From contig CP107851.1 of assembly GCA_036013505.1 (NCBI GenBank), positions 2,046,001-2,110,000 of the forward strand: DNA of 64,000 nucleotides. The letters are read 5' to 3'. The DNA comes from Streptomyces sp. NBC_00510. Lineage in GTDB: Bacteria > Actinomycetota > Actinomycetes > Streptomycetales > Streptomycetaceae. Both the position numbers and the translations under genes were made by a program. Positions within the stretch are counted from its first letter, which is position 1; every line of letters starts with the position of its first letter. Of this stretch, positions 25,410 through 34,110 are shown piece after piece. The notes below the pieces were generated by a model, which saw only the letters and a list, made by a program, of their open reading frames with translations, had not been told where the DNA came from and searched no databases.

Positions 25410-26333
25410 ATGACCACGGAAGAGTCGCCGTACGACGTGCTCGTCGTGGGCGGTTCCGGGGTGGACACGGTCGTGCGGGTGGACAGCCTGCCCGTACCGC
25501 TCGTGGACTCCCTCGGGGTGGAGCCGGTCCGGGAGTGGCCCGGCCAGACCGGCGGCAACGTGGCGCTGGGCTGCCGCGCGCTCGGCATGACCGTGAAGTT
25601 CCTCGACTTCGTCGGCGACGACTGGATCGGCACCATGCTCAGGGAGCGCCTGGCCAAGGGCGACGTCGACTTCGAGCCGCTGATCTCCCCCGCCGGGACC
25701 CGGCGGGCCGTCAACCTCGTGGACGCCACGGGCCGCCGGATGTCCTTCTACGACGGGCGCGACCCGGCGGACCTGCGGATGCCGCGCGAGTTCTACCTGC
25801 CGCACCTGCGCCGCGCCCGGCACGTGCACCTGTCGATCTCGCACTTCACGCGCTTCCTCTACGACGACATCGAGGAACTCGGCCTGCCCGTCTCGACCGA
25901 CCTGCACGACTGGGACGGACTGGCCGAGCACCAGCGGGAGTTCGCCCGCCGCTCCGACCTGGTCTTCCTCAGCGCGGCGGGAGCGGGCGAGCGCATCGCG
26001 GACATCATGCGCGGGATCCTGCGCGACGGCCGCGCCCAGGCCGTGATCGCCACCGCGGGCGCGGGCGGCGCCTATCTGCTCGCGCGCGACGGGGGCAGCA
26101 TGCCCCGGCACATCCCGGCCGTCACCCCGCCCGGCCCGGTGGTGGACTCCAACGGGGCGGGCGACGCCTTCCTCTGCGGCTTCCTCCACGGGCGCATGCG
26201 CGGACTGGACTTCGAGTCCTGCGCCCGGCTCGGCGCGACGGCAGGTGCCCACACCTGCACGGCGGGCGGCAACCTCGCCCTCATCGACGCCGCGACGCTG
26301 GAGTCCGCTCAGGTCTCCCTCTCCGGCACGTAG
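25410..26333 (+). CDS. PfkB-family carbohydrate kinase
   Basis: A 307-residue ribokinase-fold sugar or nucleoside kinase. Visible are the N-terminal VVGGSGVDTVVRVDSLP, the substrate-binding GQTGGNVALGCRALG, and the C-terminal catalytic DSNGAGDAFLCGFLHGRM with the anion-hole GAGD and its base aspartate. ATG 25410 has GGAGG five bases upstream; the GTG six bases earlier overlaps that site. Its 3' end overlaps the convergent DUF6745 gene by 25 bases. The sugar substrate cannot be told; no transporter is adjacent. Confidence 0.88.
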   Translation: MTTEESPYDVLVVGGSGVDTVVRVDSLPVPLVDSLGVEPVREWPGQTGGNVALGCRALGMTVKFLDFVGDDWIGTMLRERLAKGDVDFEPLISPAGTRRAVNLVDATGRRMSFYDGRDPADLRMPREFYLPHLRRARHVHLSISHFTRFLYDDIEELGLPVSTDLHDWDGLAEHQREFARRSDLVFLSAAGAGERIADIMRGILRDGRAQAVIATAGAGGAYLLARDGGSMPRHIPAVTPPGPVVDSNGAGDAFLCGFLHGRMRGLDFESCARLGATAGAHTCTAGGNLALIDAATLESAQVSLSGT

Positions 26334-27397
26334 TCGGCCTCCTCCAGTCCGAAGGTCCAGGCGACGCCCTCGCGGGCGGTCCGGGTCCGCGGCGGCACCC
26401 GCAGCCAGTAGGTGCGGTGGGTGCCGTCCGGCTCCGGCGTGGAGTTGACGACCTCGACCATCACCAGCGGCTCGTCCCCCTCCAGCTCGATCCGCCACAG
26501 CACGCCGGCGGCGTCCCGCTGCACGGGCTCGGCCCCGGACTCCTCCAGGTAGCGCTCGTAGCCGTAGTGCTCCAGCATCACCCGGCGCAGCTCGGCGTTC
26601 TCCTCCTCGCGTATACGGCGCGGGGTCAGCCCGGCGAGCCCGTCGAGGAACTCGGCGGGGACCGGCATGCCCCGCCAGGCGTGCAGCGCGAAGCCGTCCG
26701 CGTAGGCCAGCGCGGGGCCGTCGCCGCGGTCGAGCCGGCCCGCCTCGTCCCGGTGCAACTCCAGGGGGCGTTCGGCGACGACGGCCGTCCGCTCGTACGG
26801 CCACCACCAGCCGGCGCTCCGGGCGACCGCGGCGATCCCGGCCAGCTCCCGCGTGCCCTCCTGTCCGTCGAAGGCGGCCAACCACGCCGCGTCGTGCTGC
26901 CCGAGCACGGCGTCGAGCAACGCGAGCCGCACGGCCTGCCCGCCGCCGGGCACACCCGGTCCGGCGTCCACCACGGCGGTCCGTATCCGCTCGGTCAGCA
27001 GTACCGTCGTGTCCCACAACTGCGCGCCCGTGACGGCCCAGTGGTCCGCCCACCCGGCCGGTCCGAGCCGGTCGGCGACCCGCTCCCGCGCGGCCGCCCA
27101 CGGCCGTGTCCGCACGGCGTCGCGGACGCTGCCGCCCGCCGTGCCGTCCGCCGTCAGGCGCACGGCCAGGACCACCGCCTCCAGGGGCGAGGCCGCCCAC
27201 ACGATCCGTTCCGGCTCCGGCAGCCCCGCCAGCCGGTAGGCCAGGCGCACCCCCTCCTCCGCCGCCGCCCGGTCCGCGGGTCCGGTCGCCGCGACGACCT
27301 CGCGCCACAGCGCCGTCGTGTCCGCCGCCGGCTCCGTCGCCGCACCCGTGCCTGAACTCGTGCTCGTGCCCGTGCCCGTGCTCGCCACCGTCGTCAT
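26309..27397 (-). CDS. DUF6745-type protein
   Basis: A 362-residue cytoplasmic protein that, from memory, matches the actinobacterial DUF6745 family. A threonine/serine-rich start is followed by WREVVAATGPADRAAAEEGV and ERIVWAASPLEAVVLAV, and the C-terminal half contains LEHYGYERYLEES, VLWRIELEGDEPLVMVEVVN and a final WTFGLEEADY. No catalytic motif is evident. It is followed on the same strand by the gene at 27419 (upstream), and both are divergent from the STM4015 operon. I infer association by position only. Confidence 0.75.
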   Translation of the reverse strand: MTTVASTGTGTSTSSGTGAATEPAADTTALWREVVAATGPADRAAAEEGVRLAYRLAGLPEPERIVWAASPLEAVVLAVRLTADGTAGGSVRDAVRTRPWAAARERVADRLGPAGWADHWAVTGAQLWDTTVLLTERIRTAVVDAGPGVPGGGQAVRLALLDAVLGQHDAAWLAAFDGQEGTRELAGIAAVARSAGWWWPYERTAVVAERPLELHRDEAGRLDRGDGPALAYADGFALHAWRGMPVPAEFLDGLAGLTPRRIREEENAELRRVMLEHYGYERYLEESGAEPVQRDAAGVLWRIELEGDEPLVMVEVVNSTPEPDGTHRTYWLRVPPRTRTAREGVAWTFGLEEADYVPERET

Positions 27398-27418: not shown

Positions 27419-27745
27419 TCAGTCCGCCACGACGCGTACCGCGCCGGGCGCGTACTCGCGCTGCCGCACCACCCGGTACCACCCCTTCGGCAGCGGTATC
27501 GCGGCGTGCTCCTCGTGGACCACCCGCCCGCCGTCCGGGAGATGGAGGTACGCCGCCCCGAACGGCCCGGTCTCGCGCACCAGCGTCCCCGGCCCGACCA
27601 CCGCGTGGGCGTGCCCGGTCACCTCGCCGAGGGCCAGCACGAGCCTGCCCCGCGCGTCCCTCGCCTGCCGCGGCATCCGGTCCGTGCCCGGCGGCACGGC
27701 CGCTTCCGCGACGGGCACGATCAGGACGTCCCCCTGCCGGTACAT
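27419..27745 (-). CDS. small beta-rich hypothetical protein (108 aa)
   Basis: A 108-residue protein starting MYRQGDVLIVPVAE, with GEVTGHAHAV, YLHLPDGGRVVHEEHAAIPL and KGWYRVVRQREY. The pattern of short beta strands with conserved histidines recalls small proteins encoded beside DUF6745 genes and in phages, but no function is known to me. It ends 21 bases before DUF6745, so the two are likely co-transcribed. A GGGAGACACGC leader precedes the ATG. Confidence 0.8.
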   Translation of the reverse strand: MYRQGDVLIVPVAEAAVPPGTDRMPRQARDARGRLVLALGEVTGHAHAVVGPGTLVRETGPFGAAYLHLPDGGRVVHEEHAAIPLPKGWYRVVRQREYAPGAVRVVAD

Positions 27746-27950: not shown

Positions 27951-28907
27951 ATGTCCCACGTCGAACATCTGCAGGAACTGAACGGCCTGCCGGCCTTCGA
28001 CTTCCCCGCGCCCGGCGCGCGGCAGGAGCTCCCGGCGGCGGGCGCGGTGGCGTGGCGGCTGGCCGTCAACCCCTGGGAGGACGACGCGAAGGAGACCTTC
28101 GCGCAGTTGTGGGACCGCTTCCTGGAGACGGTCGAACCCGCCGGGGTACGGGCCCTGGTCCTGGGTCAGTGGGGCGAGCCCTACGACAACGACTCCGGCG
28201 TCCTCGTGCGGCTGCTCGTGGACGCGCGTGAACGGCTGACCACGCTGGAGGCCGTGTTCATCGGCGACTTGGAGATGGAGGAGGCCGAGATCTCCTGGAT
28301 CGAGCAGTCCGACGTGACGCCGGTGCTCGAGGCCTATCCGCGGCTGGAGGAGTTCGGCGTCCGCGGCGGCACCGGACTGCGCTTCCCGGCGACCCGCCAC
28401 CAGCGGCTGCGCACGCTCCGCTTCGAGGCGGGCGGCCTGCCCGGCGAGGCGGTCCGCGGTGTCGCCGCGAGCGAACTCCCGGCGCTGGAGCACCTGGAGC
28501 TGTGGCTGGGCGTGGCGGAGTACGGAGGCGACGCCACGGTCGCCGACCTCGCGCCGGTCCTGGCCGGCGGCCGCTTCCCCGCGCTGCGCCACCTCGGCCT
28601 GCGCAACAGCGAGATCCAGGACGAGATCGCGGCCGCCGTCGCCGCGGCCCCCGTCGTGGCCCAGCTCTCCTCGCTCGACCTGTCCCTGGGCGTGCTCACC
28701 GACGACGGTGTGACCGCCCTGCTCGCCGGCCAGCCGCTCACCCACCTGAACTGGCTGGACCTGCACCACAACTTCGTCACCGAGCCGGTCGCCGAGCGCG
28801 TGCGGGCCGCCCTCGAGCCCTCGGGCGTCGAGGTCGACCTCTCGGAACCCGGTGACGAGGACGAGTGGGACGGCGAGGTCCACCGCTACACCGCCGTCGC
28901 GGAGTGA
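27951..28907 (+). CDS. STM4015 family protein, copy 1 (LRR-like)
   Basis: A 318-residue leucine-rich-repeat-like protein that opens the STM4015-STM4011 operon. The repeats are seen in the C-terminal half as LEHLELWLGVAEYGGD, LRHLGLRNSEIQDEIAAAV and LTHLNWLDLHHNFVTEPVAE. The N-terminal half has VRALVLGQWGEPYDNDSG and a DVTPVLEAYPRLEEFGVRGG segment. Family members have no known activity; LRR folds usually bind proteins or peptides, so it may hold a substrate for the enzymes encoded downstream. The ATG follows CGGGAG. A paralogue follows eight bases later. Confidence 0.85.
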   Translation: MSHVEHLQELNGLPAFDFPAPGARQELPAAGAVAWRLAVNPWEDDAKETFAQLWDRFLETVEPAGVRALVLGQWGEPYDNDSGVLVRLLVDARERLTTLEAVFIGDLEMEEAEISWIEQSDVTPVLEAYPRLEEFGVRGGTGLRFPATRHQRLRTLRFEAGGLPGEAVRGVAASELPALEHLELWLGVAEYGGDATVADLAPVLAGGRFPALRHLGLRNSEIQDEIAAAVAAAPVVAQLSSLDLSLGVLTDDGVTALLAGQPLTHLNWLDLHHNFVTEPVAERVRAALEPSGVEVDLSEPGDEDEWDGEVHRYTAVAE

Positions 28908-28914
28908 GGCCGTC

Positions 28915-29880
28915 ATGACCGTCACACGTCACCTGGAGACCTTCCACGGGCTGCGCGTGCACACGCTGCCGGAGGCCGGCACGGCCGAGCTGCCCGGGCC
29001 CGACGCCGTGGCCTGGCGGCTGGACTGCTTCGAGGCCGGCGAGATCCCCTTCCCCGAGCTGTGGGGCCACTTCACCGCGGCGGTCGACACCACGCGGGTG
29101 CGCGCGCTGGTCCTCGGCCCCTGGTGGGACGACGAGTACTCCGAGCTGCGTCCCGTCCTCGAACTGGTGCTCGCGGACGCGGAGCGTTTCCCCGCGCTGC
29201 GCGCCCTGTTCCTCGCCGACGTGACCGGCGAGGAGTGCGAGGTCTCCTGGCTGCAGCTGACCGACGTCACGCCCGTCCTCGAACGCTTCCCGCTGCTGGA
29301 GGAGTTCGGGGTCCGCGGCGGCGACTCGCAGGGGCTGGGCGAGGAGCCGCTGTCGCTGCGTCCCGTCCGTCACGAGGCGCTGCGCGTGCTGCGCCTGGAG
29401 TCCGGCGGGCTGCCCGGCGCGGTGGTGCGGGCGGTCGGCGCCTGCGAACTGCCCTCGCTGGAGCGGCTGGAGCTGTGGCTCGGCGTGGAGCAGTACGGAG
29501 GCGACGCCACGGTCGCCGACCTCGCGCCGGTCCTGGCCGGTGGCCGCTTCCCCGCGCTGCGCCACCTCGGCCTGCAGGACAGCGAGTTGCAGGACGAGAT
29601 CGCGGCGGCCGTGGCCTCCGCTCCCGTCGTCGCGCAGCTGGAGACGCTGAGCCTGTCCATGGGCACCCTCACCGACACCGGCGCCGAGGCGCTGCTGGGC
29701 GGCCAGCCGCTCACCCATCTCAAGCGGCTCGACCTGCACCACCACTTCCTGAGCGGGGCCGTGGCCGAGCGGCTGAGCGCCGTCGTGGGCTCCGCGGGCA
29801 CCGAGGTCGACCTGTCGGAGCACTGCGAGCCGCATCACTGGCGGAACGAGGAGTGGCGCTATGTCGCCGTCTCCGAGTAG
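28915..29880 (+). CDS. STM4015 family protein, copy 2 (LRR-like)
   Basis: A 321-residue paralogue of the preceding gene with the same order of elements (VRALVLGPWWDDEYSEL, DVTPVLERFPLLEEFGVRGG, LRHLGLQDSELQDEIAAAV, LTHLKRLDLHHHFLSGAVAE). One 82-base block (29494-29575) differs from 28521-28602 at a single base, much closer than the rest, pointing to gene conversion or recent duplication. It overlaps the STM4014 start by 20 bases. Two copies suggest a heterodimer or two substrates; this is inference. Confidence 0.85.
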   Translation: MTVTRHLETFHGLRVHTLPEAGTAELPGPDAVAWRLDCFEAGEIPFPELWGHFTAAVDTTRVRALVLGPWWDDEYSELRPVLELVLADAERFPALRALFLADVTGEECEVSWLQLTDVTPVLERFPLLEEFGVRGGDSQGLGEEPLSLRPVRHEALRVLRLESGGLPGAVVRAVGACELPSLERLELWLGVEQYGGDATVADLAPVLAGGRFPALRHLGLQDSELQDEIAAAVASAPVVAQLETLSLSMGTLTDTGAEALLGGQPLTHLKRLDLHHHFLSGAVAERLSAVVGSAGTEVDLSEHCEPHHWRNEEWRYVAVSE

Positions 29881-31018
29881 CGGTACCGGCGGTGCGCTCC
29901 GCATCGCCGTCGTCGGCAACCCCGGCAACCGCAGGACGACCCTCTTCGCCGACGCGGTGCGTGCCGCGGGTCATCCCGCGCCCCGTGTGCTGGCATGGCG
30001 CGACGTGCTGCGCGGCCGGTACGCCTTCGCGCCCGGCGAGTTCGTGCGCGTCGACTCGCCCGGCGAGGACGCCGAGGTCGACCGCATGCTGCGAGGCGCC
30101 GACGACCCGGCCAGGGTCGAGGGCACCGCGTTGTGGTACCGCCGTTTCACCGCCGCCGTGCACGAGGTGACGGAGGCCGCCCGCCGGGCCGGTGCGGTGC
30201 CGTCGGCGGACGCCGAGGAGGTCGCCGTGCTGTTCGACAAGCGCCGCTGCCACACCCGGCTGGCCGCCGCGGGGGTCCCGGTGCCGCCCGCTCCCGACGG
30301 ACCGCCGGTGCGCGGCTGGGCCGAGCTCAGGGAGCGCCTGCGGTCCGCCCGGATCTCCCGGGCGTTCCTCAAGCCCGCGCACGGCTCCTCCGCCTCCGGG
30401 GTGGTGGCGCTGGCGATGGCGGGCCCCGGCCGGGTCAAGGCCACGACCTCGGTGGAGACCACCGCCGACGGACGCCTGTTCAACTCGCTGCGGGTACGCG
30501 AGTACCGCACGGAGCGGGAGGTCGCCGCCCTCGTGGACGCGCTGGCCCCGGACGGGCTGCACGTCGAGCGCTGGCTGCCCAAGGCGTCCCAGCACGGGCG
30601 GGCGGCCGACCTGCGGGTGGTGGTGGTCGCGGGCCGCGCCACGCACGCCGTCGTCCGCACCAGCCCGCACCCCATGACGAACCTGCACCTCGGCGGCGCC
30701 CGCGGCGACCTGGACACGGCCCGCGCGGCGATCCGCGCCGCGGGCGGCGACTTCGGGGAGGTGCTGACGACCGCCGAACGGGCGGCGGCGTGCTTCCCCG
30801 GCACGCTCTGCGTCGGCGTGGACGTCCTGCCCGCGACGGGCTGGCGCCGCTTCGCCGTCGGCGAGGTCAACGCCTTCGGGGATCTGCTGCCCCGGCTCAC
30901 CGGCCTCCCCGGCAGCGGCGCCGAGGGCTTGGACACCTACGCCGCCCAGGTCGCCGCCGTACCGGCCGCGATGCACGGCGCGCGACGCGAGGAGCACAAC
31001 CATGACGCCACCGCTTGA
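29861..31018 (+). CDS. STM4014 family protein (ATP-grasp-like)
   Basis: A 385-residue protein with ATP-grasp character. The N-terminal domain starts IAVVGNPGNRRTTLFADAV. The ATP-binding core has VLFDKRRCHTRLAAAGVPVP, a FLKPAHGSSASGVV glycine/lysine loop near the middle, and a late GEVNAFGDLLPRL that matches the metal-binding Glu/Asn end of ATP-grasp folds. ATP-grasp enzymes ligate carboxylates to amines or thiols through an acyl phosphate, suggesting peptide-bond or similar ligation in this system. It overlaps both neighbours (20 and 17 bases). The substrate is unknown. Confidence 0.82.
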   Translation: MSPSPSSGTGGALRIAVVGNPGNRRTTLFADAVRAAGHPAPRVLAWRDVLRGRYAFAPGEFVRVDSPGEDAEVDRMLRGADDPARVEGTALWYRRFTAAVHEVTEAARRAGAVPSADAEEVAVLFDKRRCHTRLAAAGVPVPPAPDGPPVRGWAELRERLRSARISRAFLKPAHGSSASGVVALAMAGPGRVKATTSVETTADGRLFNSLRVREYRTEREVAALVDALAPDGLHVERWLPKASQHGRAADLRVVVVAGRATHAVVRTSPHPMTNLHLGGARGDLDTARAAIRAAGGDFGEVLTTAERAAACFPGTLCVGVDVLPATGWRRFAVGEVNAFGDLLPRLTGLPGSGAEGLDTYAAQVAAVPAAMHGARREEHNHDATA

Positions 31019-31829
31019 CATGAACCAGATCGTGGGAAGCCACGACATCCTGCTGGTCACGCTGGACACCCTCCGCCACGACGTGGCCGAGGAGCTGACC
31101 GCGGACGGCCGCATCCCCCATCTGGCCCGCCATCTGCCCGGTGGCAGCTGGGAACGCCGGCACGCGCCAGGCAGCTTCACCTACGCCTCCCACCAGGCGA
31201 TCTTCGCGGGCTTCCTGCCCACGCCCACCACGCCCGGTCCCCACCCGCGGCTGTTCGCGGCGCGCTTCGCCGGCAGCGAGAGCACCGCGGACGGCACCTT
31301 CGTGTACGACACCCCCGACCTGGTGTCGGGCCTGGCCGAGGCCGGCTACCGCACGGTGTGCATCGGCGGCGTCGGCTTCTTCAACAAGCAGGCGCCGCTG
31401 GGCTCGGTGCTGCCCGGCCTCTTCCAGGAGAGCCACTGGGAGCCGGAGTTCGGCGTGCCCTCCCCGACCTCCTTCGAGGCCCAGGTGGCCCGCGCCGAGG
31501 AGGTCGTCGCCGCCCTGCCGCCGCAGCAGCGGCTCTTCCTGTTCGTGAACGTGTCGGCGCTGCACCAGCCCAACTGGTTCCACCTGCCGGGCGCCACCCG
31601 GGAGGCGGGCGACTCGCGCGCCACCCACGCCGCCGCCCTGGAGTACGTCGACCGCCACATCGGCAGGCTCTTCGCCGCCGTCTCCAGCCGCCGTCCGTGC
31701 CTGGCCGTCGTCTGCTCCGACCACGGCACGGCGTACGGCGAGGACGGCCACACCGGCCACCGCATCGGCCACGAGGTCGTGTGGACGGTGCCCTACGCCC
31801 ACTTCCTCCTCGACGGGGCCGCCCGATGA
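31002..31829 (+). CDS. STM4013/SEN3800 family hydrolase (alkaline phosphatase superfamily)
   Basis: A 275-residue metal-dependent hydrolase of the sulfatase/phosphoesterase superfamily. VTLDTLRHD (Asp22) is the first metal site. GSFTYASHQAIFAG aligns with the sulfatase CXPSR...TG motif, but Thr60 replaces the formylglycine cysteine and His replaces arginine. The C terminus has SDHG (Asp240, His241) and GHTGHRIGH with more metal-binding histidines. A threonine nucleophile points to phosphate-ester or phosphotransfer chemistry rather than sulfate removal. There is no signal peptide, so it acts in the cytoplasm. It is chained by overlaps in the operon. Confidence 0.85.
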   Translation: MTPPLDMNQIVGSHDILLVTLDTLRHDVAEELTADGRIPHLARHLPGGSWERRHAPGSFTYASHQAIFAGFLPTPTTPGPHPRLFAARFAGSESTADGTFVYDTPDLVSGLAEAGYRTVCIGGVGFFNKQAPLGSVLPGLFQESHWEPEFGVPSPTSFEAQVARAEEVVAALPPQQRLFLFVNVSALHQPNWFHLPGATREAGDSRATHAAALEYVDRHIGRLFAAVSSRRPCLAVVCSDHGTAYGEDGHTGHRIGHEVVWTVPYAHFLLDGAAR

Positions 31830-33205
31830 CCCGCACCGAGGTGACGCTCTCCGCCACGCCCTCGGCCACGGCCGCCGTGCGCCCGTACCGGCACTACGTG
31901 TACGCGTACCCGCACAAGACGGCCTACCGCGCGCTGCCCCGCGAGCACGCCCGGCTGCGCGACCTGTGGGCGGACGAGCCGAAGGACGCGCTGTCCCTCT
32001 ACTTCCACATCCCGTTCTGCGAGGTCCGCTGCGGCTTCTGCAACCTCTTCACCAGGATCGGGGCACCCGACGGCCTGGCGACCGCCTACCTGGACGCGCT
32101 GGAGCGCCAGGCCGCGGCGGTGCGGGAGGCGCTGGGCGAGGGCGCGCGGTTCGCCAACGCCGCCTTCGGCGGCGGCACCCCCACGTACCTGGAGGCTGCC
32201 GAGCTGGAGCGGCTCTGCGATCTCGCCGAACACGGCCTGGGGGCGGGCCTGCGGGCGATACCGCTCTCCGTGGAGGCCTCGCCGGCCACCGCGACCGCCG
32301 ACCGGCTGTCGGTGCTGGCGGAGCGCGGCACGACCCGGCTGAGCCTGGGGGTGCAGAGCTTCGTCGACGCCGAGGCACGCGCCGCCGTCCGTCCCCAGCG
32401 CCGGTCCGACGTCGAGGCGGCGCTGGGCAGGATCCGGGAGGCGGGCATACCCGTCCTCAACATCGACCTGATCTACGGCATCGACGGCCAGACCGAGGGT
32501 TCCTGGACGCGGTCCCTCGACGCTGCGCTCGCCTGGCGGCCCGAGGAGCTGTACCTGTACCCCCTGTACGTCCGCCCGCTCACCGGCCTCGGCCGGCACG
32601 CGGCCGACGCCGCGCGGGGCGAAGCGGCGTGGGACGAACAGCGGCTGCGGCTGTACCGCCACGGCCGCGACCATCTGCTGGCGCACGGCTACGAGCAGGT
32701 GTCGATGCGCATGTTCCGCCGTACGGGGGCGCCCACCACGGGCGGCGGGGACTACGCCTGCCAGACCGACGGCATGGTGGGCCTGGGCTGCGGCGCCCGT
32801 TCGTACACCTCCTCGCTGCACTACTCCTTCGACTACGCCGTCGACATGCACCACATCCGCGGCATCATCGACGACTACACGGCGCGCACCACGGGGGAGT
32901 TCGCCCACGCCGACTTCGGCTGGGCGATGGACGCCGAGGAGGCCCGCCGCCGTCATCTGCTGCAGTCCCTGCTGCAGGCCGAGGGCCTGCCGGTCGCGGA
33001 GTACCGGGCCCGGTTCGGCACGGCTCCCGGGGAGGACTTCGCCGCGGAACTGGAGCGCTTCGCGGACCGGGGCTGGCTCGACGCCTCAGCGGGGCCGGAG
33101 GTGCTGCGGCTGTCGCCCGAGGGGCTGGCCCACTCCGACGCGGCCGGACCCGAGCTGTTCTCCGCCGCCGTCCGCCGGCGCATGGCCGCCTACGAGCCCA
33201 AGTGA
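31826..33205 (+). CDS. STM4012 family radical SAM protein (HemN-like)
   Basis: A 459-residue radical SAM enzyme of the coproporphyrinogen-III-oxidase-like (HemN) type. The 4Fe-4S cluster cysteines are Cys65, Cys69 and Cys72 in IPFCEVRCGFCNLF, followed by the HemN-like FGGGTPTYLEAAELE, SLGVQSFVDAE and NIDLIYGIDGQTEGSW. A HemN-type C-terminal domain follows (CQTDGMVGLGCGARSYTSSL, then RRRHLLQSLLQAEGLPVAEYR). It is coupled to its neighbours by ATGA and GTGA overlaps. Position in the STM401x operon argues against a heme role. The chemistry, possibly methylation or oxidative decarboxylation, is unproven. Confidence 0.88.
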   Translation: MTRTEVTLSATPSATAAVRPYRHYVYAYPHKTAYRALPREHARLRDLWADEPKDALSLYFHIPFCEVRCGFCNLFTRIGAPDGLATAYLDALERQAAAVREALGEGARFANAAFGGGTPTYLEAAELERLCDLAEHGLGAGLRAIPLSVEASPATATADRLSVLAERGTTRLSLGVQSFVDAEARAAVRPQRRSDVEAALGRIREAGIPVLNIDLIYGIDGQTEGSWTRSLDAALAWRPEELYLYPLYVRPLTGLGRHAADAARGEAAWDEQRLRLYRHGRDHLLAHGYEQVSMRMFRRTGAPTTGGGDYACQTDGMVGLGCGARSYTSSLHYSFDYAVDMHHIRGIIDDYTARTTGEFAHADFGWAMDAEEARRRHLLQSLLQAEGLPVAEYRARFGTAPGEDFAAELERFADRGWLDASAGPEVLRLSPEGLAHSDAAGPELFSAAVRRRMAAYEPK

Positions 33206-34110
33206 GCGCTTCTGCCATGGACCTGACGATCCTCTACCGTGGCCCGCTGGCCTCGTGCGACTACGACTGCCCGTACTGCCCCTTCGCCAAGCGCCGTGAC
33301 AGCCGCGCCCAGCTGACCGCCGACCGCGCCGCGCTGGAGCGCTTCGCGGGCTGGGCGGCCGGGCGGACCGGCGACCGGCTCTCCCTGCTGTTCACCCCGT
33401 GGGGCGAGGGCCTGGTGCGCTCCTGGTACCGGCGTACGCTGGCGGAGCTGAGCCGACTTCCGCACGTCCGCAGGGTGGCGATCCAGACCAATCTGAGCTG
33501 CCGCACGGAGTGGATGGACGAGGCCGACCTGGACACGCTCGCCCTGTGGTGCACCTTCCACCCGGGCCAGACGCCCTACGACCGCTTCCTGGCCAAGTGC
33601 CGCGAGCTCGCGGACCGCGGCGTGCGCCACAGCGTGGGCGTCGTCGGACTGCCGGAGCACCTGGAACAGGCCGACCGGCTGCGGGCCGACCTCCCGGACC
33701 ACGTCTACCTGTGGGTCAACGCAGCCGAGGGCCACACGTACACCGACGCCGAGGCGGCGCGGTGGACCGCGCTGGACCCGCTCTTCCCGTACAGCCGGCA
33801 TCCGCACCGCAGCGCGGGCCTGCCGTGCCGCACGGGCGAGTCGGTCATCTCGGTGGACGGCGAGGGCACGGTGCGCCGCTGCCACTTCGTCCCCGAGGAA
33901 CTGGGCAACCTCTACGACGGCTCCTACCGCGCGGCGCTGCGCCCGCGTGCGTGCCCGCTGGCCGTCTGCGACTGCCACATCGGCTACGTCCACCTGGAGA
34001 CGCTGCCGTTGTACGACGTGTTCGCGGGCGGGGTCCTGGAGCGGATCCCCGCCGCGCCGCCGCCGGGGCGGACTCCGCTCCCGCTGCTCCTGCCGCCCCT
34101 GCTCCCGTAG
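33202..34110 (+). CDS. STM4011 family radical SAM protein
   Basis: A 302-residue radical SAM protein with the cluster motif CDYDCPYC near the N terminus (Cys19, Cys23, Cys26). It has a short TIM-barrel (LFTPWGEGLVRSWY, IQTNLSC, TFHPGQTPYDRF) and a C-terminal cysteine-bearing region (GTVRRCHFVPEELGNLY, then RACPLAVCDCHIG) like the SPASM/twitch auxiliary-cluster domains of peptide-modifying enzymes. GTG 33202 is inside the previous stop (GTGA), so I chose it; an ATG at 33217 is the alternative. It closes the operon. The auxiliary-cluster-like tail suggests a peptide or protein substrate. Confidence 0.85.
   Translation: MSASAMDLTILYRGPLASCDYDCPYCPFAKRRDSRAQLTADRAALERFAGWAAGRTGDRLSLLFTPWGEGLVRSWYRRTLAELSRLPHVRRVAIQTNLSCRTEWMDEADLDTLALWCTFHPGQTPYDRFLAKCRELADRGVRHSVGVVGLPEHLEQADRLRADLPDHVYLWVNAAEGHTYTDAEAARWTALDPLFPYSRHPHRSAGLPCRTGESVISVDGEGTVRRCHFVPEELGNLYDGSYRAALRPRACPLAVCDCHIGYVHLETLPLYDVFAGGVLERIPAAPPPGRTPLPLLLPPLLP

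Follow-up and report, generated by a model that had tools for sequence, protein, structure and literature searches.

Amino-group carrier proteins (AmCPs) bear their substrate on the gamma-carboxylate of a C-terminal Glu, and LysX-type systems join amines there (excerpt of PMC9303977). RimK adds Glu to the C-terminus of ribosomal protein S6 (excerpt of PMC4741518). Here we compare with these systems the STM4015-STM4014-STM4013-STM4012-STM4011 operon found in a 64,000-nucleotide stretch (hereafter the window) of Streptomyces sp. NBC_00510 (contig CP107851.1, positions 2,046,001 to 2,110,000), whose 10.1 Mb genome is one contig. We found that STM4015, a leucine-rich repeat (LRR) protein, ends in a near-invariant Glu. 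With a probability of about 45%, we propose that the operon performs protein-tethered chemistry on the STM4015 C-terminus, with STM4015 serving as carrier or as lasting substrate.

The operon and the C-terminus of STM4015

Positions 27951 to 34110 of the window hold six genes, all on the + strand, in the order STM4015, STM4015, STM4014, STM4013, STM4012, STM4011. There is a single gap of 7 nucleotides (nt), between STM4015a and STM4015b; the remaining junctions overlap by 20, 17, 4 and 4 nt, and the final 4-nt overlap requires the GTG start of STM4011. In a profile search, all six proteins passed their NCBIfam cut-offs with E-values of 2.7e-113 to 1.2e-192, and therefore the assignment is not due to chance. 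An earlier note on this DNA had described six co-directional genes of these same families, all but the first pair overlapping, and the coordinates of the open reading frames (ORFs) and the NCBIfam matches agree with it on both points. The window proteins are thus members of the NCBIfam families STM4011-STM4015 (NF038073-NF038076 and NF006067), whose names come without an assigned function. The only Pfam matches above gathering scores in the operon were the sulfatase fold in STM4013 and radical SAM (S-adenosylmethionine) plus HemN_C in STM4012; the radical SAM match of STM4011 is below the gathering score. The features are as follows (aa, amino acids).

27951..28907, + strand: STM4015 family LRR protein, copy a, 318 aa, proposed carrier or substrate (NF038076, 403.9 bits against a cut-off of 275)
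28884..28904, + strand: C-terminal heptapeptide RYTAVAE of copy a, its terminal Glu being the proposed modification site (homologue conservation)
28915..29880, + strand: STM4015 family LRR protein, copy b, 321 aa (NF038076, 377.8 bits)
29857..29877, + strand: C-terminal heptapeptide RYVAVSE of copy b (homologue conservation)
29861..31018, + strand: STM4014, ATP-grasp ligase apparently nearest LysX/ArgX/RimK, 385 aa (NF038074, 454 bits)
31002..31829, + strand: STM4013/SEN3800 hydrolase, alkaline phosphatase/sulfatase superfamily, 275 aa (NF038075, 428 bits; PF00884 Sulfatase, 44.5 bits)
31826..33205, + strand: STM4012, HemN-like radical SAM protein, 459 aa (NF006067, 640.6 bits)
33202 (GTG) or 33217 (ATG)..34110, + strand: STM4011, radical SAM protein whose C-terminal part is rich in Cys, 302 aa when read from GTG (NF038073, 417.6 bits)

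To the gene list of the earlier note we add the near-invariant C-terminal Glu of STM4015, together with a DUF6745 gene and a 108-aa ORF beside the operon. Glu was the last residue in all eight STM4015 sequences of an initial alignment. In a larger set it was the last residue in 171 of 173 sequences (score at least 200) from nine lineage groups, which together have 58 distinct terminal heptapeptides, both non-Glu ends included. By group, the Glu is found in 85/86 sequences of Actinomycetota, 65/66 of Bacillota, 7/7 of the phylum of isolate SZAS-1, 5/5 of Armatimonadota, 5/5 of Deinococcota and 1/1 each of alphaproteobacteria, gammaproteobacteria, Bacteroidota and Cyanobacteriota (the last an orphan); its codon is GAG in 101 and GAA in 72 cases, repeat loci included. 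The two non-Glu rows are a split gene in locus L072, whose other piece ends in Glu, and an orphan paralogue in L194 (G565:C1:8230500-8237500), which scores below the NCBIfam cut-off and ends RHVHFGV. The set is weighted toward Paenibacillus and the family of the window, and duplicates were filtered by eye, so that further ones may be present. Before this count we removed the repeat loci L165 and L170, recognized by eye (L047, also on the repeat list, contains no STM4015), as well as the short loci L128-L153. We likewise removed four pieces with scores under 200 (the second piece of L072, L192, L196 and L199), all four of which end in Glu; three distant LRR matches scoring 22 to 26 in dropped short loci (L142, L151, L152) have no terminal Glu.

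To see how this end compares with the ends of the enzymes, we calculated last-residue entropies, which were 0.07 bit for STM4015 (117 sequences) and 3.7, 2.6, 3.0 and 3.1 bits for STM4014, STM4013, STM4012 and STM4011, respectively (104-106 sequences each, same loci). In the set of 117, Arg stands at position -7 in 112 sequences and Tyr or Phe at -6 in 113, and Arg312 and Glu318 are invariant in a 29-sequence alignment. Over 6000 random pairs of STM4015 sequences, the pairwise likeness was 0.58 in the heptamer, 0.41 in the LRR part and 0.18 in the stretch between; for pairs below 0.40 in the LRR part, the values were 0.47 in the heptamer, 0.33 in the LRR part and 0.14 in the linker, the linker figures being lowered because they are end-anchored and ungapped. 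The net charge is -5.8 in the last 30 residues compared to -2.4 per 30 elsewhere. Taken together, these data indicate that the C-terminus of STM4015 is a conserved heptapeptide ending in Glu, preceded by a variable acidic linker.

The rest of the protein is a folded domain. The AlphaFold2 (AF2) model of STM4015a is an LRR with a predicted local distance difference test score (pLDDT) of 93.6, and its best match in the PDB is 2ra8 (Z 31.5), the solved structure of Bacteroides fragilis Q64V53, which is a close homologue covering the whole Bacteroides protein of our set. The 2ra8 chain has 362 residues, of which the first 354 match and end YPMITE; it is apparently a tagged crystal construct. The Bacteroides STM4015 (L046:5888-6958) carries an N-terminal WGR domain.

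The copy number of STM4015 differs from that of the enzymes. In the 129 loci with all four enzyme families detected (pieces counted), one STM4015 lies upstream of STM4014 in 111, two in 15, five in one, six in one and none in one, while each enzyme family is present as a single copy (score at least 200) in 128 loci and absent in one. In L187 (G549:C47), six tandem STM4015 genes precede one STM4014, with likeness of 0.43 in the LRR, 0.83 in the heptamer and 0.20 in the linker; in L189 (G575:C1), five precede one STM4014, with 0.42, 0.74 and 0.11, respectively. Tandem STM4015 genes beside single enzymes would resemble the behaviour of a substrate or carrier more than that of catalytic subunits.

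We also considered that the tail could be kept by the start of STM4014. At ten loci (that of the window and nine annotated ones), STM4015 and STM4014 overlap by 4-20 nt in six cases and are separated by 3-58 nt in four; and 15 of 16 STM4015 copies with no STM4014 in the fetched stretch keep the terminal Glu. Because of these gaps and these copies, the Glu is not due to gene overlap.

The four enzymes

STM4014 had no Pfam match at an E-value of 0.01. When we compared a profile of 26 STM4014 sequences with the PDB, LysX came first (1uc8, 1uc9, 3vpd; 5e-5 to 1e-4, best 4.9e-5), followed by RimK (5zct, 4iwx; about 9e-4) and inositol kinase (1.3e-3). The AF2 model (pLDDT 90) gave LysX, LysX/ArgX with LysW-gamma-AAA, PsnB, ArgX with LysW, and RimK as top Foldseek rows, and the top nine VIA-align rows are all LysX, ArgX or RimK (Z 24.3 to 22.1). 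PsnB, a graspetide ligase, occupies Foldseek rows 3, 5, 8 and lower and is absent from the best 50 VIA-align rows, an absence that carries no weight. Because sequence and fold give the same ranking, we place STM4014 near LysX, ArgX and RimK, which appear to be its nearest solved relatives by fold and, weakly, by profile, with a modest margin over other ATP-grasp proteins. The earlier suggestion that STM4014 is ATP-grasp-like is thus borne out by fold and weakly by profile, and the Cys-rich tail that had been noticed in STM4011 is confirmed by a 6-sequence alignment in which five Cys C-terminal to the radical SAM core are invariant.

Motif counts exclude homologues scoring below 290 (STM4013), 450 (STM4012), 300 (STM4011) and 240 (STM4014). 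In STM4013, [FYA]T[YWLF][AP]x[HY] is present in 129 of 131 homologues (the pattern not being tied to an alignment column) and CxPS[RS], which we take to be the sulfatase maturation motif, in none; judged by eye, Thr stands at the presumed nucleophile position, where sulfatases have a modified Cys or Ser. This points to phosphoester chemistry and away from sulfatase maturation of STM4013, a reading that we rejected on the motif. In STM4012, CxxxCxxC is present in 129/129 homologues and CxxxCxxCxC, presumably the HemN coproporphyrinogen oxidase motif with its fourth Cys, in 0/129; the window protein scored 128 bits against the hemN model, below the cut-off of 324.95 for HemN coproporphyrinogen oxidase. 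Its profile matches in the PDB are HemN (1.6e-28) and then NocN (3.2e-16). For STM4011, the sole PDB profile match at an E-value of 0.1 was SkfB (4.7e-5), within the C-terminal part.

In Salmonella, a HAD-IIB phosphatase above the Cof-type cut-off lies 3' of the operon; in Bacteroides, one is fused to STM4011, and in D. taeanensis, one adjoins the DUF6745 gene pair (these two being below the Cof-type and above the HAD-IIB cut-off). STM4013 homologues are also found in a second setting, apart from the other genes of the set (L043:9738-11309, L042:6152-9250, L169:447-3781), where an approximately 81-aa protein, STM4013 and a NUDIX protein are found together in 3/3 loci (L043, L042, L169); by eye, a MoaA-like radical SAM ORF lies upstream in L042 and L169, and L169 has a thymidylate-kinase-like ORF. 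On an Agrobacterium Ti plasmid (L045:8100-9451), a distant STM4013-like hydrolase below the family cut-off is encoded next to GTP cyclohydrolase II, and ten Agrobacterium plasmids carry a distant STM4013-like match.

Distribution, partner genes and searches

The order 4015-4014-4013-4012-4011 was found in eight lineage groups, with the genes broken in the Bacteroides record, where STM4013 and STM4012 are present only as pieces. It is present in plasmid records of Methylobacterium, Deinococcus, Paenibacillus, Salmonella and Bacteroides, and in further loci of Paenibacillus, Saccharibacillus, Streptomyces and Nocardia. In the phylum of an Armatimonadetes metagenome-assembled genome, STM4015 is over the cut-off in 5/151 genomes, and all five have the five-gene order. 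In the phylum of isolate SZAS-1, it is over the cut-off in 7/149 genomes, five of them with the standard order; the exceptions are L164 (G539), in which STM4014 and STM4015 are swapped, and L159 (G536), which is split, with 4015-4014 and 4011 on separate contigs. L164 is the only one of the 129 loci in which STM4015 comes after STM4014. STM4013 is over the cut-off in 6 of 246 genomes of the phylum of the window, its own genome included.

We then counted STM4014, STM4011, STM4015 and DUF6745 in 101 genomes of the family of the window, its own genome included, and found them over the cut-off in 47, 46, 50 and 45 genomes, respectively. STM4014 and STM4011 occur together in 46 genomes, and the lone exception (G559) has STM4011 in pieces; STM4014 and STM4015 occur together in 47, and STM4015 occurs without STM4014 in three (G554, G570, G604). 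Co-occurrence of the families across distant genomes, which the earlier note had named as a check on its claim, therefore holds, both across the eight lineage groups and within the family. The gene set is widespread, reaching Gram-negatives, Deinococcus and Armatimonadota, yet it bears locus-tag names alone.

A DUF6745 gene is a frequent partner, divergent or convergent to the operon. In the window, where DUF6745 is the single copy of the genome, the pair is as follows.

26309..27397, - strand: DUF6745 protein, divergent upstream of the operon (PF20530, 385 bits)
27419..27745, - strand: 108-aa ORF paired with the DUF6745 gene (phrog_27831, 5.9e-14)

Methylobacterium and Deinococcus ORFs also match phrog_27831, and homologues of the 108-aa ORF adjoin DUF6745 in loci of Armatimonadota and of the SZAS-1 phylum. 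DUF6745 is present in 41 of the 47 STM4014-positive family genomes; six have STM4014 only and four DUF6745 only, and the DUF6745 plus approximately 100-aa module is found in G582 and G611 without STM4014 over the cut-off. The pair is a frequent but optional partner, a separate module that also occurs alone. The conserved ends are [EQ][TA] in DUF6745 and Asp in the approximately 100-aa partner; we considered both proteins as further substrates and dropped the idea, as the DUF6745 end is kept in genomes without the operon.

A short conserved precursor ORF, the other sign that had been suggested, was not found: among 583 ORFs of 20-90 aa that lie no farther than 1.5 kb from the operon at 26 loci and do not belong to the known genes, no cluster was present in two lineages or in four loci (blastp-short, E-value 0.01, which very divergent or distant peptides may escape). 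Clustering of 3931 neighbouring ORFs of at least 50 aa, from an earlier subset of loci, gave mostly Paenibacillus-level clusters and, as recognized by eye, also one of an ATP-binding cassette (ABC) ATPase (16 loci) and one of a major facilitator superfamily (MFS) protein (10 loci) at variable positions. An S41 peptidase lies farther upstream in the Bacteroides locus L046, with other genes intervening. A role in anti-phage defence was set aside, as PADLOC gave one weak match, to STM4012 only (2.6e-06, 24.5 bits, 85 residues).

In the openly licensed literature we found no functional study of the STM4011-STM4015 system and no product, in line with the earlier description of a system without assigned biochemistry; other work may exist. 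In the excerpts seen, a table in PMC3844500 lists STM4013.S among sigma-54 binding sites, a selection table in PMC2784778 gives STM4015 as hypothetical protein, and only the neighbours STM4016 and STM4010 are named in PMC2698986 and PMC4632510.

Readings of the operon and comparison with known systems

The reactions that we suggest are a proposal; the gene content and order, homology, folds, C-terminal conservation, STM4015 copy number and co-occurrence to which it refers are established here. STM4015 would be a folded, gene-encoded LRR carrier, or a lasting substrate, whose acidic C-terminal extension presents the near-invariant Glu. STM4014 would phosphorylate a carboxylate of this Glu and couple it to a small molecule or amino acid via an amine group. 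STM4011, with its SkfB-like C-terminal part, and STM4012, which is HemN-like and matches NocN, may then modify the tethered group or nearby residues of the tail, and STM4013, an alkaline-phosphatase-superfamily hydrolase of the Thr type, may remove a phosphate or cleave a phosphodiester at some step. A phosphorylated intermediate would be in keeping with the HAD-IIB phosphatase that, in three loci, is either fused to the operon or lies close to it. The earlier note had proposed an ATP-grasp ligation and two radical SAM steps on an LRR-bound substrate; this fits our data except in the part given to the LRR protein, which is itself a better candidate for substrate or carrier than for a mere binder, because a short precursor was not found and its C-terminal Glu is conserved. 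A narrower version, in which the LRR proteins, up to six per cluster, are amino-group carriers, the ATP-grasp enzyme loading an amine on the Glu and the radical SAM enzymes remodelling it, is possible, and we offer it tentatively.

Several observations weigh against tethered chemistry on the STM4015 tail. The STM4014 profile matches to LysX and RimK are whole-sequence sums of weak stretches, with a best single independent E-value of 0.17. In VIA-align, glutathione synthetase (Z 21.9) and D-Ala:D-Lac ligase (21.8) are tied with row nine, and glutathione synthetase and the D-Ala ligases lie 2.4-3.4 Z under the top row. The releasing peptidase is absent from the annotation inside nine annotated operons. 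The alignment of 2ra8 with the AF2 model extends from residue 8 through the final residue, with the chain range running to 357, past residue 354, where the native sequence apparently ends, so that the tail seems to be ordered in 2ra8, and the pLDDT of the last STM4015 block is 81; therefore the tail may be a structural cap and not a free arm. Orphan STM4015 proteins keep the Glu in G554 (RHVAVEE), G604 (RYTAVDE) and G570 (RYAAVTE), which have neither STM4014 nor STM4011 (STM4012 and STM4013 were not searched there), and the orphan paralogue in L194 lacks it although the enzymes of the operon are present in its genome. Finally, the ends of DUF6745 and of its small partner are near-invariant, with last-residue entropies of 0.5 and 0.0 bit (27 sequences each); because both ends are also kept where the operon is missing, conservation of the last residue is by itself no proof of a substrate.

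The apparently ordered tail in 2ra8 and its fairly confident AF2 model, the Glu kept without STM4014 and STM4011, and the conserved ends of other associated proteins are what would be expected if STM4015 were a scaffold or recognition subunit, its tail an LRR C-cap or enzyme-docking peptide, and the true substrate a free small molecule. We consider this rather unlikely, since a cap has no obvious need for one last residue across phyla or for a variable linker, tandem expansion beside single enzymes is substrate-like, and the nearest relatives of STM4014 act on protein Glu carboxylates.

The RimK rows near the top of the fold searches, and the lack of an annotated peptidase in the nine operons, would suit a RimK-like system in which a permanent modification gives STM4015 its final working form, as a modified regulator or protein-bound cofactor, and nothing is released. 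A releasing enzyme could, however, be encoded elsewhere, and we regard a purely permanent modification as improbable.

It is very unlikely that the operon makes a graspetide-like ribosomally synthesized and post-translationally modified peptide (RiPP), with STM4014 linking the terminal Glu to a hydroxyl or amine of the tail through an intramolecular ester or amide, and the radical SAM enzymes adding cross-links. The PsnB rows in Foldseek point this way, but the last 12 STM4015 positions have no invariant Ser, Thr or Lys acceptor (117 sequences; T 69, G 28, S 11, A 7, L 1, N 1 at -2 and Y 96, F 17, other 4 at -6), and the short-ORF search gave no precursor. That the operon is a sulfatase system in which one radical SAM protein matures STM4013 is hardly credible, although STM4013 matches PF00884 Sulfatase: CxPS[RS] is absent from all 131 homologues, and the Thr motif is present in 129 of them.

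Tethered chemistry on the STM4015 C-terminus is thus the reading we favour. The gene families were already known; the STM4015 terminal Glu, the apparent kinship of STM4014 to LysX, ArgX and RimK, the one to six STM4015 copies per enzyme set and the partnership with the DUF6745 pair are new. Naming the terminal Glu as acceptor makes the question of the product falsifiable at one protein. If the reading is true, protein-tethered metabolite synthesis would come to include LRR proteins and this radical SAM chemistry. In the narrower version with LRR amino-group carriers, AmCPs and pearlins would be joined by a third type of ribosomal carrier, present in eight lineage groups, and different LRR carriers may bear different substrates or steer the product to different partners.

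The AmCP systems (LysW/Vzb22 with LysX/ArgX) are alike in having a folded carrier with a negatively charged C-terminal extension ending in Glu, an ATP-grasp ligase of the same fold as STM4014, and later enzymes that work on the tethered group (excerpt of PMC9303977). STM4015 has the C-terminal Glu (171/173) and the acidic extension (-5.8 versus -2.4 per 30), and STM4014 would be the LysX/ArgX-type partner by fold and weak profile, other ATP-grasp folds scoring 2.4 Z lower. In contrast, STM4015 is an approximately 320-aa LRR protein (AF2, 2ra8) without the small LysW-type globular domain; a releasing hydrolase is not annotated inside nine STM4011-4015 operons, and some clusters have several carriers. 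AmCP pathways use a kinase/reductase set, whereas STM4011-4015 has radical SAM enzymes and a hydrolase of the alkaline phosphatase superfamily.

Pearlins (3-thiaglutamate, 3-thiahomoleucine) are similar in that a ribosomal carrier undergoes amino-acid chemistry at its C-terminus, with a radical SAM reaction among the steps (excerpt of PMC9303977), but there an aminoacyl-tRNA ligase (PEARL) loads a short peptide and a cobalamin radical SAM enzyme and a protease take part. RiPP radical SAM enzymes are likened to STM4011 by its SkfB match and to STM4012 by its matches to HemN and then NocN; the SkfB match is confined to the C-terminal part of STM4011, and the short precursor of such systems was not found. 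In RimK and S6, an ATP-grasp ligase of the same fold likewise acts on a protein C-terminus (excerpt of PMC4741518); unlike that pair, STM4011-4015 comes with a dedicated LRR protein of its own, as well as two radical SAM enzymes.

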